Shown here piece by piece: positions 712 through 18,503 of a stretch of DNA of 45,899 bases. How positions within the stretch are numbered: the stretch's first letter is position 1; each line of letters starts with the position of its first letter. The notes beneath the pieces were generated by a model. The model made no database searches and was not told the DNA's origin. It worked only from the letters and a program-made list of their open reading frames with translations. A program made the position numbers and the translations under genes. This DNA is from a virus, in IMG/VR virus record IMGVR_UViG_3300025769_000216, positions 1 to 45,899 of that record. The stretch is one strand, 5' to 3'.

Positions 712-926
712 ATTCGTGGCAATCGACGACGGTTGATTGTCGGCTGACTGAACAAGCCTTTGACAGAGGGCTAAGGTACACTAATGTATTTTAAATGCTC
801 AAATGAGTAAGTTTTTACAAAGGTGGTTGTTAGTAGTTCCACATATAAACTCGAGGTTATGTCCTCACTGTATGAGATGTGGTCTGTTAATGAAAGCTTG
901 GGGGTATGAGTCACATCAAATCCCCC
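712..926 (+). ncRNA. Candidate structured RNA or long leader 1
   Basis: About 250 bases between promoter copy 1 and the ATG at 957 hold no plausible gene. They do hold consecutive hairpins: 720-727 with 732-739 (8 bp, one G-U, extendable outward), 755-760 with 765-770, 839-844 with 877-882 enclosing a GAGG/CCTC hairpin, and GGGGG 900-904 with CCCCC 922-926. The element could be a free small RNA or a long structured 5' leader of the gene at 957. It shares the ten bases GGCTAAGGTA with the larger RNA candidate at 1722-2306. No known Rfam class is recognised by eye. Confidence 0.45.
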
Positions 927-956
927 GCCGTTGCGAATACTTAGAGAGGAATAATC

Positions 957-1687: not shown

Positions 1688-1716
1688 TTGCATTCATCCC
1701 ATTAATTTGAGATGAT
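1688..1716 (+). promoter_or_regulatory. Promoter-like element copy 2
   Basis: TTGCAT at 1688-1693, 17-base spacer containing CCCATTAATTTGA, GATGAT at 1711-1716. It overlaps the end of the nuclease gene. Its upstream 20 bases (GCGACAGTTTT..CATT) match those of copy 1, so the two loci are duplicates. It precedes the large folded RNA candidate. Confidence 0.65.
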
Positions 1717-1721
1717 GTATT

Positions 1722-2306
1722 TAGATCAAGGTATGTGTGGTCCTATCCACATCACTAGCGAGCCCAAGTATAGTGAGAGGAATATCACTTAATCTTTGTT
1801 GCAAGTGGATTATGCGCAAAGTTCCTTGATCGAACAGGGACAACAGACTATGCGTGATTGAGTTTGAGTTTCATATCCTCAAACAATAGACACGTCTATG
1901 GGACTGCCCTGTGGCTAAGGTAGTGCCAAGGTAAAAAGAAGCGAACCTTGTGTTTAAACCTAAAACTACCTACAAGTTTCCCGCGTGGAAATGAGTAGAA
2001 AAGGCAGAAGCCAACGGACTATTGCATTGAGCCAGAGGTATATGTAAGGCAAAAGCAGGCGGTTGGACGTCTACTCATAAAGTTTTATAGCGTGGTACAG
2101 GCGTGAAAAGGAACTACTTAAATCTAGTTTCAGTACGGGAAAAATGTTTAAATCATTCCCGTCCCAACGGAGTTAGCGTTGTGGGTATAAACAAAGCCAC
2201 GATATAAATGTAGCGTTAAATCCAAACACCTACGATCAATATGTTTTATGTCCCGTATTGATCGTACGAGGGTTAGCGGTGTAGGTTAGTGTTTAGTAAA
2301 CCGCTA
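1722..2306 (+). ncRNA. Large structured non-coding RNA candidate (about 585 nt)
   Basis: No credible gene lies between 1685 and 2330, but long perfect helices fill the interval: 1724-1731 with 1824-1831 (8 bp), 1735-1740 with 1747-1752, 1753-1757 with 1771-1775, 1862-1868 with 1878-1884 (7 bp), 1918-1924 with 1965-1971 enclosing 1927-1932 with 1945-1950, 1991-1999 with 2070-2078 (9 bp) enclosing 2011-2015 with 2062-2066, 2084-2095 with 2197-2208 (11 of 12) enclosing 2112-2116/2125-2129, 2135-2141/2156-2162 and 2163-2169/2177-2185, then 2231-2241 with 2256-2266 (11 bp), and 2274-2280 with 2300-2306 (7 bp). These helices nest without conflict into separate multibranched domains. Its own promoter lies just upstream. 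Size, phage context and ornate fold recall GOLLD or ROOL RNAs, but I recognise no class signature. Confidence 0.7.
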
Positions 2307-2330
2307 CGCTATTTAAAGATCGGAGTAATT

Positions 2331-2501
2331 ATGAATGAAGACGAACTAGAAAATTTGAGAGAAAGTGTAAAAGATGAACTAGAGGGAATGTCAATGAATG
2401 ACTTTTCTAACCTAGTAGAAAAATATGATCTAGGCATAGAAATAATTGACGGCATATTTTACGACGTTGTAAATAAAATTGTTGAGGAAAAAAGTAATTA
2501 A
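2331..2501 (+). CDS. Hypothetical acidic protein, 56 aa
   Basis: I place the start at ATG 2331, preceded by CGGAGTAATT. A longer in-frame start at 2289 would lie inside the final hairpins of the RNA candidate and has no ribosome site. The product is acidic and helical (MNEDELENLRESVKDELEGM...) with no cysteines or membrane segment. It probably shares the transcript started at promoter copy 2, since I see no terminator between the RNA candidate and this gene. Promoter copy 3 begins 23 bases after its stop. Function unknown. Confidence 0.6.
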   Translation: MNEDELENLRESVKDELEGMSMNDFSNLVEKYDLGIEIIDGIFYDVVNKIVEEKSN

Positions 2502-3675: not shown

Positions 3676-3704
3676 TTTACATTTTCCCATTAATTTGAGA
3701 TACT
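3676..3704 (+). promoter_or_regulatory. Promoter-like element copy 4
   Basis: TTTACA at 3676-3681, 17-base spacer TTTTCCCATTAATTTGA, GATACT at 3699-3704. Its core matches copy 3 over CCCATTAATTTGAGATACTTA. It drives the 84-residue gene at 3736. Confidence 0.75.
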
Positions 3705-3990: not shown

Positions 3991-4007
3991 TTCCCGCTTT
4001 CTTTTTT
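3978..4007 (+). terminator. Intrinsic terminator overlapping a stop codon and the next promoter
   Basis: AAAGCGGG (3978-3985), loop TTTAATT that includes the TAA stop, CCCGCTTT (3993-4000), then CTTTTTT. The U tract is also the -35 region of promoter copy 5, so one transcription unit ends exactly where the next begins. Confidence 0.8.
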
Positions 4008-4026
4008 CCCATAAATATGAGATAAT
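3998..4026 (+). promoter_or_regulatory. Promoter-like element copy 5
   Basis: TTTCTT at 3998-4003 (poor -35), 17-base spacer TTTTCCCATAAATATGA, GATAAT at 4021-4026. Only six bases separate the -10 from the ATG at 4033 and there is no Shine-Dalgarno, so the transcript is predicted to be leaderless. Confidence 0.65.
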
Positions 4027-5591: not shown

Positions 5592-5598
5592 TCCCAAG

Positions 5599-5628
5599 CC
5601 CCGCGCTTCACGGCGCGGGGTTTTTTTT
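5599..5628 (+). terminator. Strong intrinsic terminator
   Basis: CCCCGCGC (5599-5606), loop TTCACG, GCGCGGGG (5613-5620), then eight T. A textbook Rho-independent terminator closing the early-type block. Confidence 0.95.
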
Positions 5629-5685
5629 GTGCCTGACTTTCGGTGCGACGATATACCACACCCCCGCGACGTATTGCATCTTGAC

Positions 5686-5738
5686 ACTATATCTAGTATG
5701 CTTTAACCGTTATTTAATAACCTACTATATGTAGTATG
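5686..5738 (+). repeat. Pair of ACTATATSTAGTATG elements
   Basis: Copies at 5686-5700 and 5724-5738 match at 14 of 15 bases. Each has an inner inverted repeat (ACTA..TAGT). A partial copy ATCTAGTATG is at 5874-5883. Spacing is 38 bases start to start. Likely protein-binding sites. Confidence 0.6.
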
Positions 5739-5761
5739 TGATCCGTGGAACATGGTACTAT

Positions 5762-5841
5762 ATCTTGTGTCAATGTGACATATTGTCGCAGGCAAAGAAA
5801 GATGCATACCACATCTTGTGTCAATGTGACATAATGTCGCA
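5762..5841 (+). repeat. 29-base direct repeat, two copies
   Basis: Copies at 5762-5790 and 5813-5841 match at 28 of 29 bases, beginning ATCTTGTGTCAATGTGACAT and ending TGTCGCA. Each contains the inverted repeat TGTCA..TGACA. A third ATTGTCGCA is at 5922-5930. The start-to-start distance is 51 bases. Confidence 0.8.
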
Positions 5842-5975
5842 CCTAGGGTACCTTGGAGCACGGACAACGCAACATCTAGTATGTCCGAAACCCCCTACCC
5901 CCTAAATATGGGGTGTGGCAAATTGTCGCAGCCTAGCGGCGCATGTTTTAGATATACGATAGGTGCAAAATACTT

Positions 5976-8612: not shown

Positions 8613-11023
8613 TGGCAATCGATAAAAGAATTACAGGCGAAGCAGGCGAACTCGAGATCGAAGAGAAGGATATCACCGAGGTCCTTGGTCCAAGCACCAT
8701 GGATCAAGAATCAAACATTGTCGAAATGATGGAAGACGGTTCAGCGATCATCAACCCGGAAGAAGAAGCACCCGAAGTAGAATTCTATGACAACCTCGCG
8801 GAAGCCGTTGATGAGTCCGAACTCCAACGGATATCCAACAAGTTACTCGGCGATTATGAAAACGCCAAAGACTCTCGTAAAGATTGGGAAGATGGTTATG
8901 TTAAAGGATTAGATCTTTTAGGATTTAAATACAGCGAACGTTCACAACCGTTCCAAGGCGCAAGTGGCGTGACGCATCCTTTACTCGCCGAATCCGTCAC
9001 ACAGTTTCAAGCACACGCTTACAAAGAAATGCTACCCGCGGGTGGTCCGGTTCATACACAAGTCGTCGGTGATCAAACACCCGATGTAATGGCGCAAGCC
9101 GAACGTGTCAAAGATTTCATGAACTATGAAATCACCCACACTATGGAAGAGTATGATCAAGAAATGGATCAGATGCTTTTCTATTTACCGCTCGCCGGTT
9201 CCACCTTTAAAAAAGTTTACTATGATGCTTCTCTGGGAAGAGCGGTATCGCGTTTCGTGCCCGCTGAAGATTTAGTTATTCCGTATGAGACCACCGATTT
9301 AGAGACAGCGGAAATGATCGGACAACGTGTTCGGGTGACGGCCAATGATTTGCGCAAGAAACAAGTCATGGGCTTTTACAGAGATATCTCGTTAAAAGCC
9401 GGACAAGAAGAACAAAATCAAATTCAACAAAAATACGATGATTTAGAAGGTACTCATCCTGAAGAAAACGATGATGATATTTTCAATCTCATCGAGTTCC
9501 ATGTCATTTGTGATATCAAAGGCTTTGAAGACAAAGGCATGGATGGTGAGCCCACCGGCATTATGTTGCCTTACATTATTACGATTGATGAGAACTCATC
9601 AGAAGTTTTATCAATTCGAAGAAACTACAAAGAAAATGATCCGTTAAAAAGAAAAGTAGAATACTTTGTTCACTACAAATTCTTACCGGGTCTGGGATTC
9701 TATGGCTTTGGATTGATTCACATGATTGGCGGTCTATCTAGAACTGCCACGGCAGCCCTAAGACAATTACTAGATGCTGGTACTCTTTCGAACTTGCCTG
9801 CCGGCTTTAAGGCAAGAGGGCTACGGATTCGTGATGATGACTCTCCTTTAAAACCCGGCGAGTTTAGAGATGTGGATGCACCGGGCGGAAGTCTAAGAGA
9901 AGGTTTACTTCCACTACCTTATAAAGGTCCTGATCAAGTCTTAATGCAGTTACTGGGTTTTTGTGTGGAAGCCGGAACACGATTTGCAGCCATTGCCGAT
10001 CAGAAGTTAGGCGAAGGTTCTCAAGCCAATCCTGTCGGTACCACCATGGCGATCATGGAGCGTGGTGCGCGGGTCATGTCGGCTATACACAAAAGATTAC
10101 ATCACGCACAACGTAAAGAGTTTAAAATCCTAGCGCGCGTCTTCGCCGAATACTTACCACCGGAATATCCATACAATGTAGCCGGCGGTAATCGTATGAT
10201 TAAGATGCAGGACTTTGATGACAGAGTCGATGTCATTCCTGTATCCGATCCGAACATCTTCTCCATGGCACAACGTATTACGTTGGCCCAAACCGAATTA
10301 CAATTAGCTCAATCGAATCCTCAAATTCATAATTTGTATGAAGCATACAGAAGAATGTATGAAGCATTAGGCGTTCAGAATATTGAATTGATTCTACCCC
10401 CACCCCAACAGCCCACCCCTAAAGATCCGGGTATGGAAAATGCGGCAAGCTTGACCGGACAACCAATGCAGGTATTCCCGGGGCAAGATCATCAAGCCCA
10501 TATTGATGCGCACCGAGCGTTTATGAGTTCATTCTTAGTTAAAAATAACTTACCGGTATTGACTGCATTACAAGCACACGTGTCAGAACACATCGCACTA
10601 CTTGCAAGAGAACAAGTCGAAGCGAAAAATGCTCCTATCATTCAAGAACAGGCACAACAATTCGGCGGTCAATTACCTCCAGAGCTTCTTCAACAGTTCC
10701 AAGCACAAAACGAAAAAGAAATTGCACAAGTTATTGCTCAAATGACCAACGATGCAGTAGCGGAAGAGCAAGAATATTTAGAAAAAACAGGTGAAAGTGA
10801 TCCGTTAATCGATTTAAAACAACAAGATTTACTGTTAAAGCTGAACGAACAGCAAATGAGACAAAAAGAACAAGAAGAAAAGTTTGAAATTGATCGTGAA
10901 AGAATCAAATCTCAAGAAGAACAGACCGATAAACGAGTTCAAACACAGCAAGACATTGCAAATCTAAGAGCACAGACTACAATGGCGAAAGCAATGAGAG
11001 GAAATCGTGGCCCAACTACCTAA
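8612..11023 (+). CDS. Portal protein, P22 gp1-like, 803 aa
   Basis: A large portal of the P22/podovirus type forming the dodecameric DNA gate at one capsid vertex. Support comes from length (about 700-800 residues is typical), position after terL, and the early block DYENAKDSRKDWEDGYVKGL with FQGASGVTHPLLAES, followed by long Gln/Glu-rich C-terminal helices (from about residue 690) like the barrel of long portals. The first 60 residues are acidic and probably flexible. It overlaps the previous gene by one base and the next by 17. There is no sign of damage. Confidence 0.9.
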   Translation: MAIDKRITGEAGELEIEEKDITEVLGPSTMDQESNIVEMMEDGSAIINPEEEAPEVEFYDNLAEAVDESELQRISNKLLGDYENAKDSRKDWEDGYVKGLDLLGFKYSERSQPFQGASGVTHPLLAESVTQFQAHAYKEMLPAGGPVHTQVVGDQTPDVMAQAERVKDFMNYEITHTMEEYDQEMDQMLFYLPLAGSTFKKVYYDASLGRAVSRFVPAEDLVIPYETTDLETAEMIGQRVRVTANDLRKKQVMGFYRDISLKAGQEEQNQIQQKYDDLEGTHPEENDDDIFNLIEFHVICDIKGFEDKGMDGEPTGIMLPYIITIDENSSEVLSIRRNYKENDPLKRKVEYFVHYKFLPGLGFYGFGLIHMIGGLSRTATAALRQLLDAGTLSNLPAGFKARGLRIRDDDSPLKPGEFRDVDAPGGSLREGLLPLPYKGPDQVLMQLLGFCVEAGTRFAAIADQKLGEGSQANPVGTTMAIMERGARVMSAIHKRLHHAQRKEFKILARVFAEYLPPEYPYNVAGGNRMIKMQDFDDRVDVIPVSDPNIFSMAQRITLAQTELQLAQSNPQIHNLYEAYRRMYEALGVQNIELILPPPQQPTPKDPGMENAASLTGQPMQVFPGQDHQAHIDAHRAFMSSFLVKNNLPVLTALQAHVSEHIALLAREQVEAKNAPIIQEQAQQFGGQLPPELLQQFQAQNEKEIAQVIAQMTNDAVAEEQEYLEKTGESDPLIDLKQQDLLLKLNEQQMRQKEQEEKFEIDRERIKSQEEQTDKRVQTQQDIANLRAQTTMAKAMRGNRGPTT

Positions 11024-16127: not shown

Positions 16128-17051
16128 ATGGCTATATCAAGAAGTCAACTCGTTAAAGAGTTAGAACCGGGTCTAAACGCACTGTTTGGCTTGGAATATC
16201 AAAAGTACGAAAACGAACATGCTGAGATTTTTAATCAAGAATCTTCAGACAGAGCTTTTGAAGAAGAAGTAATGTTAACAGGTTTCGGTAACGCTCCTGT
16301 GAAGCAAGAAGGTGCAGCAGTAACATTTGACTCTGCAAACGAAGCTTACACAGCACGTTATTCACATGAAACCGTTGCTTTAGCATTCTCTATCACTGAA
16401 GAAGCTGTGGAAGATAATCTTTATGACAGATTATCAGCACGTTACACAAAAGCATTAGCTAGATCTATGGCACACACAAAACAGATCAAAGCTGCTAACG
16501 TATTAAACAATGCGTTCGCATCTTCTGGCGCAGCCGGTTCAAATCCCGGCGGTGACGGTGTGTCTCTTGTGAACGCTGCTCACCCAACTGTAGGTGGCGG
16601 AGCATTCTCAAATAGAAACTCAACTGATGCAGACCTTAACGAAACATCACTCGAGCAGGCGATGATTGATATTTCTCAATTCATCGATGAGAGAGGACTA
16701 AAGATTGCTGTACAAGCAAGAAAAATGATTGTCCCACCTCAATTAATGTTCGTAGCGGATAGAATCCTAAACTCAACATTGAGAACAGGTACAGCCGACA
16801 ATGACATCAACGCATTAGTGAACATGTCAATGTTGCCTGAAGGTTATAGAGTAAATCACTATCTAACAGATACTGATGCATACTTCATCATGACCGACGC
16901 ACCTAATGGATTCAAACACTTCGTGAGAACTCCATTAGCGACAGCTATGGAAGGTGATTTCGATACAGGTAACGTGAGATACAAAGCTAGAGAGAGATAT
17001 TCTTTCGGTTTCTCAGATCCACGTTGTGTATACGGTTCACAAGGTTCCTAA
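16128..17051 (+). CDS. Major capsid protein, 307 aa
   Basis: The building block of the icosahedral head, HK97 fold expected. Features: MAISRSQLVKELEPGLNALFG N-terminal helix with no long leader peptide, a repeated-contact region SHETVALAFSITEEAVEDNLYDRL, the long helix region SLEQAMIDISQFIDERGLK, VPPQLMFVADRIL, and a C-terminal GNVRYKARERYSFGFSDPRCVYG block characteristic of capsid proteins of this kind. The AGGAGG ribosome site and terminator fit a highly expressed gene. No separate protease gene is visible, in line with a scaffold that is not cleaved. Confidence 0.9.
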   Translation: MAISRSQLVKELEPGLNALFGLEYQKYENEHAEIFNQESSDRAFEEEVMLTGFGNAPVKQEGAAVTFDSANEAYTARYSHETVALAFSITEEAVEDNLYDRLSARYTKALARSMAHTKQIKAANVLNNAFASSGAAGSNPGGDGVSLVNAAHPTVGGGAFSNRNSTDADLNETSLEQAMIDISQFIDERGLKIAVQARKMIVPPQLMFVADRILNSTLRTGTADNDINALVNMSMLPEGYRVNHYLTDTDAYFIMTDAPNGFKHFVRTPLATAMEGDFDTGNVRYKARERYSFGFSDPRCVYGSQGS

Positions 17052-17526: not shown

Positions 17527-17811
17527 ATGGCCTTCGATAGTGATGTTCTAGTTAAAGGTGCGGCAGCCGGAGCTACAACAGAAATAAATTCTCAAAGATC
17601 ACGTCTTAAGGGATTTGTTATTGGTGTGGGCGCCACAGGCAGTAACGGCACAGTAACTTTTAACGATGGCGGCACTGCTGTATTTAACGTAGCTGTTGTG
17701 GGGGGAACCTCAGACGTTGCAATGAATATTCCTGAACAAGGTGTTTTATTTAAAGCAAACTTGAACGTAACCACTGTTAATTGTACAGTGAATGTATTCT
17801 ACACAGGATAA
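17527..17811 (+). CDS. Putative virion protein, 94 aa
   Basis: Small Gly/Val/Asn-rich beta protein (MAFDSDVLVKGAAAGATTEINSQR..., VNCTVNVFYTG) preceded by AAGGAGG. It is similar in style to the preceding gene and probably part of the virion surface or connector. The stop shares one base with the next ATG (TAATG). No specific family recognised. Confidence 0.65.
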   Translation: MAFDSDVLVKGAAAGATTEINSQRSRLKGFVIGVGATGSNGTVTFNDGGTAVFNVAVVGGTSDVAMNIPEQGVLFKANLNVTTVNCTVNVFYTG

Positions 17812-18086
17812 TGGCAGACAAACAACCACCGAAAACTAAAAAATATTTCCGCTCTACCAAAAGTGGAGCGGGAATGACCAAAGCCGGTGTCGCTCGATAT
17901 CGAAAAGAGAACCCCGGTTCAAAATTAAAAACCGCTGTAACAGGGAAAGTAAAACCCGGCAGTAAAGATGCTAAAAGAAGAAAATCTTATTGTGCTCGTT
18001 CTGCGGGTCAAATGAAACAATTTCCCAAAGCAGCCAAAGACCCCAATTCAAGATTAAGACAAGCACGTAAACGCTGGAGGTGCTAA
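17811..18086 (+). CDS. Small basic protein, 91 aa (DUF6321-like)
   Basis: Start ATG 17811 in TAATG is chosen over an in-frame ATG at 17781 inside the previous gene. The sequence GMTKAGVARYRKENPGSKLKTAVTGKVKPGSKDAKRRKSYCAR is a conserved block I recall as DUF6321, found in marine viruses, function unknown. It is very basic with two Cys near the C-terminal half. Nucleic-acid binding is plausible from charge. Confidence 0.75.
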   Translation: MADKQPPKTKKYFRSTKSGAGMTKAGVARYRKENPGSKLKTAVTGKVKPGSKDAKRRKSYCARSAGQMKQFPKAAKDPNSRLRQARKRWRC

Positions 18087-18503
18087 TTGGAAATAAGTGA
18101 CAAAACGACAGTTGGCATGCCAATTAGAAACTTGGTTTCTATTGTCACTGCCGTGGCACTGGGAGTCTATGCTTATTTCGGAATAGTCGAAACCCTAAAC
18201 CAACATTCTACTCGACTAGAACTAATGGAAAAAGATGTGCAATTAAACACAGAGTTTCGAATTAAATGGCCCAGAGGTTTAATGGGTAATCTACCTGCTG
18301 ATGATGAACAATATATGTTATTAGAATTCCTATCAGGACAAGTTGAGAAACAACAAGCAACCTTAGATGAAAATGCTGATACGAAAATTATGATTAAACA
18401 TTTAGAAGAAATGGTAGATCAGTTAGAAAAAGATGTTGAAAAATTAAAAGATGCAACAAGAGAAATTAAGTTTGCAAACGGTAATGGAAATGGGGGATAC
18501 TGA
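18087..18503 (+). CDS. Membrane-anchored coiled-coil protein, 138 aa, TTG start
   Basis: TTG 18087 immediately follows the previous stop, after GGAGGTGC. The product has one transmembrane segment (about 13-33, IRNLVSIVTAVALGVYAYFGI), a short loop with PRGLMGNLPADDEQ, and a long coiled coil (about 85-128). This topology (short inside, coiled coil outside) fits an inner-membrane spanin-like or membrane-tethered virion factor, but no outer-membrane partner lipoprotein is visible. Confidence 0.65.
   Translation: MEISDKTTVGMPIRNLVSIVTAVALGVYAYFGIVETLNQHSTRLELMEKDVQLNTEFRIKWPRGLMGNLPADDEQYMLLEFLSGQVEKQQATLDENADTKIMIKHLEEMVDQLEKDVEKLKDATREIKFANGNGNGGY

Follow-up and report, generated by a model that had tools for sequence, protein, structure and literature searches.

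A head-to-tail array of exchangeable RNA modules

Positions 1722-2313 of the viral record IMGVR_UViG_3300025769_000216 (45.9 kb; the whole stretch of 45,899 nucleotides (nt) is hereafter called the window) almost certainly consist of six autonomous RNA modules arrayed head to tail and designated A, B1, B2, C, D, and E, most of which have their own closing stem and four of which (A, B2, D, and E) contain pseudoknots. A preliminary description had presented 1722-2306 as a single ornate RNA of about 585 nt, a reading that was abandoned because its pieces are exchanged independently in relatives and occur alone or reordered in other phage contigs. The best explanation overall, with chances that we judge to be about even, is that the interval encodes a polycistronic array of individually acting small phage RNAs. 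The six modules are as follows.

1724-1831, plus strand: module A, with closing stem 1724-1731/1824-1831 (GATCAAGG/CCTTGATC), inner stems, and a pseudoknot of 5 base pairs (bp)
1834-1912, plus strand: module B1, with ends ACAGGG/CCCTGT and a long inner hairpin
1913-1971, plus strand: module B2, with a pseudoknot made of the pairings GGC/GCC and GGTAGT/ACTACC and an inner hairpin that varies
1977-2079, plus strand: module C, with a 5' mini-hairpin, closing stem 1991-1999/2070-2078 (ATGAGTAGA/TCTACTCAT), and three inner stems
2084-2208, plus strand: module D, with closing stem 2084-2095/2197-2208 (11 of 12 pairs), a pseudoknot, and three inner stems
2211-2311, plus strand: module E, with closing stem TAGCGT/ACGCTA, hairpin 2231-2241/2256-2266 (TACGATCAATA/TATTGATCGTA), and a 6-bp pseudoknot AAACAC/GTGTTT

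Comparison of nine close relatives, in which the neighbouring protein is 87-89% identical, revealed that parts of the interval were kept, lost, or replaced independently at helix ends, which argues that the single-RNA reading is wrong. In L004, the promoter is followed directly by 2084-2504; L006 and L007 retain 1685-1979 and then pass at once to the gene, and L008 retains only 1685-1836. Foreign modules were also detected: L003 carries two of them followed by 1904-2087, and L005 has one foreign module, 1833-1981, two more foreign modules with a short extra stretch, and then 1974-2085. Moreover, L009 combines A, a shortened B2, C, a foreign unit, and E, and both L010 and L096 carry K-A-I-C with further units. 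The alignment edges inside the interval (n = 38) had a median distance of 1 nt to module ends, versus about 34 nt for random edges, a figure that measures sharpness and is not an independent test, since the module boundaries were drawn partly from the same relatives.

Structure and covariation of the modules

The structured character of the RNA was borne out, with a minimum free energy of -168 kcal/mol for 1720-2310 versus -149.5 (standard deviation 6.7) for dinucleotide shuffles (z = -2.74), none of the 100 shuffles being as low, and with stems that covary in homologues far beyond chance. All four long helices named in the preliminary description (1724-1731/1824-1831, 1991-1999/2070-2078, 2084-2095/2197-2208 with 11 of 12 pairs, and 2231-2241/2256-2266) are present and real, but they are not parts of one fold: the first three close modules A, C, and D, respectively, and the fourth is the hairpin of E. 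Likewise, the multibranched fold proposed for the whole interval is an artefact of folding adjacent independent domains jointly and leaves out the pseudoknots that four of them (A, B2, D, and E) contain.

Covariation in the collected homologues, which had been suggested as a check, was strong for A, C, D, and E. For module A (18 sequences), 93.6% of cells were paired versus 37-51% in slid controls, and both sides had changed in 16 of 26 pairs, two pairs of the 5-bp pseudoknot among them. The corresponding values were 99.2% versus 23-35% for module C (both sides changed in 7 of 19 pairs), 93.6% versus 37-42% for module D (14 of 25 pairs), and 98.8% versus 30-52% for module E, the D and E counts excluding the 3' end of four D sequences and the closing stem P1 of E, which MAFFT had misplaced. 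P1 was judged instead by comparing pairing within a sequence with pairing swapped between homologues, and the four D sequences in a comparison of D closing stems. The latter revealed that the D closing stem, which lies wholly outside the search pattern, covaries across dozens of homologues, with variants including AAGACTGG/CCAGTCTT, AGTTTGG/CCAAACT, AGGTTAG/CTAACCT, TACTTGG/CCAAGTA, GTATGG/CCATAC, and GCAAGG/CCTTGT. In module B2, the long stem shows covariation at its terminal pair (G-C/A-U/U-A), and the inner core is invariant, in part because it was fixed by the search pattern itself.

In the swap test, the closing stems of S, G, H, A, C, and E paired better within a sequence than between homologues, and those of B1 and R did not pair above the control, so that the boundaries of B1 and R are less certain. 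B1 recurs as an intact unit in L005, L006, and L007, with diverged copies in L204 and L287. The shuffles take no account of relatedness among homologues, but the slid controls together with the variety of pair types make a chance origin of the covariation very unlikely.

Module kinds and arrays in other phages

Degenerate-pattern scans of IMG/VR found 20 stretches for A, 84 for D, 35 for B2, 5 for C, and 12 for E. Iterated profile searches of 307 sequences yielded 21 distinct homologues of A, 6 of B1, 24 of B2, 11 of C, 63 of D, and 12 of E, together with 47 of a manA-like module (M) and the foreign kinds F to V, among which F, G, J, N, P, Q, T, U, and V comprise few sequences each. In all, about 20 module kinds occur in 31 distinct array compositions with mostly short linkers, for example A-B1-B2-C-D-E in the window and B2-H-M-T-A, D-U-A-E, I-H-D-E, C-P-B2-E-R, B1-R-S-I-B2, and K-A-I-C-N elsewhere. 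Every adjacent module pair (82 of 82) lies on one strand, and at the search threshold no kind occurred twice in a locus, although a second, diverged H-like unit was recognized by eye in L204. The loci are mostly contig fragments, so that per-genome counts are lower bounds. Almost all module homologues lie outside open reading frames (ORFs) of at least 100 amino acids (aa), which, with no ORF of 60 aa or more in the interval, speaks against a coding region. The exact D and B2 patterns had no copy in 84,980 bacterial and archaeal genomes.

The terminase region of the window shows 68% DNA identity to Pelagibacter phage HTVC027P and phage 023Pt_psg01. Among isolates, DNA similarity to modules was found only for D in HTVC115P and for K2 in HTVC105P, apart from a single short match within a gene of an Enterocloster phage. 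Both HTVC phages have Ca. Pelagibacter HTCC7211 as host; module D of HTVC115P lies between gp07 and gp08 at 2742-2862, and K2 of HTVC105P is followed by another closed unit, the two occupying 1891-2052 of that phage record. HTVC027P and HTVC023P, which belong to the same terminase lineage as the window, yielded no convincing module in their first 24 kb. On the minus strand of HTVC027P, positions 17671-18218 are gene-free and GC-rich with several closed stems, and include the Rfam Flavobacterium-1 RNA (RF02976, 90 bits, 17753-17873); this stretch is possibly another array of the same design. In addition, 023Pt_psg01 has a match to the manA-like module M at 10223-10363 (minus strand) and, at 16153-16477, another gene-free stretch with structure, which is flanked by a promoter and a gene.

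Three further observations concern individual units and joints. Unit Q (GGCGAAAAGCAT.. CYATGTTGAG) is nested in a loop of module D in L235, L236, L250, and L269 and stands free before B2 in L282 (530-567), indicating modules within modules. The motif AAGTTT occurs at 6 of 44 module joints versus 0.7 in random windows, and may mark a point of recombination or of RNA cleavage. Module S (L287 1891-1976, L006 2518-2606, and L010 87-177) contains GGACGCAAAGCCTC, which is reminiscent of the c-di-GMP-I riboswitch motif; Rfam gave no such match in L287 or L010.

The manA-like module

Another module of the window lies upstream of the array, is retained in the relatives, and is associated with its own copy of the repeated promoter element described below (686-705).

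722-934, plus strand: module M, a divergent manA-like RNA

Module M aligned over the full manA model (RF01745, 1-192) with 29.5 bits (E = 4.7e-6), and its counterparts scored 35.5 bits in L010 and 39.4 in L173, all below the curated cut-off of 55.2. In a full-length alignment to the consensus structure, it keeps the manA core segments CUGAA, UAAGGU, and GUAG. In the literature, manA RNA is a riboswitch candidate of marine and cyanophage origin that lies in possible 5' untranslated regions (UTRs) of diverse genes (PMC2864571), and this description fits membership in the module pool. Like module M, it is a marine, phage-borne structured RNA. The matches found here nevertheless remain below the cut-off, and the remaining module kinds are unrelated to manA in sequence and fold. 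No known class other than manA was encountered in the arrays.

Promoter and surrounding genes

The gene-free interval extends over 1685-2330, between a gene matching PHROG 2165 (1313-1684) and a 56-aa ORF (2331-2501). In agreement with the preliminary description, no ORF of at least 60 aa was found within it (both strands were checked over 1685-2288), and a promoter-like element with a -35/-10 pair does end at 1716.

1688-1716, plus strand: promoter read from the sequence, with -35 TTGCAT (1688-1693), -10 GATGAT (1711-1716), and a 17-nt spacer
1697-1713, plus strand: repeated element TCCCATTAATTTGAGAT inside the promoter spacer
2331-2501, plus strand: 56-aa ORF after the array (p2331), with ribosome binding site GGAG, without known family

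With the -10 box ending at 1716, the expected transcription start falls at about 1722-1724, which is the first base of the first closing stem, and in L003 and L004 other modules sit at exactly the same position after the promoter. The element TCCCATTAATTTGAGAT has five copies in the window versus 0.03 expected, and marks promoter-like sites in the first 4 kb. These copies (TCCC-N8-GRGA, partly palindromic) lie at 686-705, 1697-1716, 2534-2553, 3685-3704, and 4007-4026, each in a promoter-like spacer, and probably represent an operator for a phage or host regulator. Farther downstream, the stretch 5592-5975 before the terminase gene is gene-free; it carries a hairpin resembling a terminator as well as repeats CATCTTGTGTCAATGTGACATA(A/T)TGTCGCA, and might serve as an origin of replication or as a packaging site.

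Mode of action and competing explanations

As a polycistronic array, the interval would be transcribed from one promoter into a common RNA comprising six autonomous small structured RNAs of about 60-125 nt, taken from a pool of about 20 kinds, the manA-like RNA included, that marine and partly Pelagibacter phages exchange as units. Each module would work individually as a small phage RNA, either cut free from the common transcript or acting inside it, and during infection each kind would bind a host target of its own, be it a protein, an RNA, or a metabolite, in the way that the members of a phage tRNA cluster are individually useful. Autonomous units, a common orientation, and reassortment, as expected for an array of processed trans-acting RNAs, were all found. 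That the modules do act individually in trans is plausible, at somewhat less than an even chance. A distinct target for each kind would be favoured because loops and pseudoknots are highly conserved within a kind and because different kinds are stacked and hardly ever repeated.

Several observations weigh against this reading. In most cases, 17-30 nt separate the end of a module or array from a start codon, which is the position of a cis-acting leader; single A and D modules stand directly before genes in L217, an arrangement equally compatible with cis action; and no terminator 3' of module E was found in the window. The identity of the following genes points the other way. The 110 following ORFs fall into 55 clusters, with nine unrelated ORFs after the nine single A modules and at least 18 clusters after single D modules, and the p2331 ORF family follows six different arrays. 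Furthermore, L009 has lost p2331 and retained its array, and in L010 a promoter-like element separates the array from the next gene. The unrelated following genes, together with L009 and L010, make gene-specific control unlikely. On the preferred reading, the small RNAs would each act on their own and use the leader position as a convenient place to be carried.

The main rival is that the modules are generic cis-acting 5'-UTR elements, that is, compact, end-closed RNAs of interchangeable and stackable kinds that, at the 5' end of phage transcripts, slow mRNA decay or aid translation of any gene that follows. The distance to the start codon and the unrelated following genes agree with this possibility, as does a predicted transcription start at the beginning of the first stem, but the strong sequence conservation of loops and pseudoknots within kinds exceeds the needs of a generic stem, up to six different kinds are stacked with hardly any repeated, and the arrays of L009 and L010 have no directly following dependent gene; we thus consider it rather unlikely. 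Riboswitch-like leaders, in which each module would be an aptamer controlling the following gene in response to a metabolite, would account for the compact pseudoknotted folds, the conserved loops, and the leader position, and one kind, manA, has been proposed as a riboswitch candidate (PMC2864571). This explanation is nonetheless improbable, as up to six different kinds precede one 56-aa gene with no expression platform seen, and the modules are tied neither to metabolic genes nor to any one gene family, no constant downstream gene of coherent function being found among the 110 following ORFs. Tandem riboswitches, as described in PMC9481103, likewise place consecutive structured domains in a 5' leader, but consist of two to four units, mostly of one class and tied to the regulated gene, whereas up to six unrelated kinds precede unrelated genes here.

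Self-cleaving or mobile elements, either ribozymes or selfish RNA units that insert side by side, could explain the clean insertion and loss, the head-to-tail joints, the recurrent AAGTTT at some of them, and the occurrence of Q both nested in D and free. Known ribozymes were unmatched even at relaxed thresholds, however, no kind was found in several copies per locus, and no linked mobility gene was seen, so that this possibility is very improbable. A single ornate RNA of about 585 nt is scarcely credible: all its helices are present, the interval folds better than shuffles, a single promoter precedes it, and its parts adjoin without a gap, but these parts are swapped independently in nine relatives and found separately elsewhere.

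In organisation, the arrays come closest to phage tRNA clusters that, as in T4, include further stable RNAs; there, too, small structured RNAs lie head to tail on one transcript and are gained and lost as units. Here, ARAGORN detected no tRNA or transfer-messenger RNA (tmRNA) in the window or in 30 related loci, which speaks against a tRNA/tmRNA cluster, and about 20 unrelated kinds are present instead. GOLLD and ROOL, which are single large phage-encoded RNAs often located near tRNA islands (PMC12286853), are similarly elaborate and non-coding, but the array consists of independent modules of 60-125 nt without Rfam match, and a giant of that kind conserved as a unit is ruled out by the independent exchange of parts. 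The preliminary description had seen no signature of either; indeed, GOLLD, ROOL, HEARO, OLE, and raiA were absent among Rfam matches up to E 10 (500-2700), and no family reached its gathering score anywhere in the window. None of modules A-E matched at the curated threshold or was assignable to a known Rfam class, and the novelty suggested in the preliminary description thus apparently holds. No published description of such arrays was found in a literature search that was incomplete for subscription papers and bioRxiv.

Implications for marine phages

About 20 recurrent RNA kinds, nearly all outside Rfam and several strongly covarying, reassort as units in marine phages, including those of the very abundant Pelagibacter. 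Relatives of manA, long an orphan riboswitch candidate, are thereby shown to belong to mixed arrays. Since modules are present in two cultured Pelagibacter phages, both the trans and the cis readings are testable. If the modules act in cis, they would constitute a modular leader system for which we know of no parallel, and if they act in trans, they would represent a new class of phage effector. An exchangeable armoury of trans-acting RNAs, shared among marine phages in head-to-tail cassettes, each kind directed against a different host function or defence, is an unlikely outcome but, if true, would be an RNA counterpart of protein anti-defence islands.
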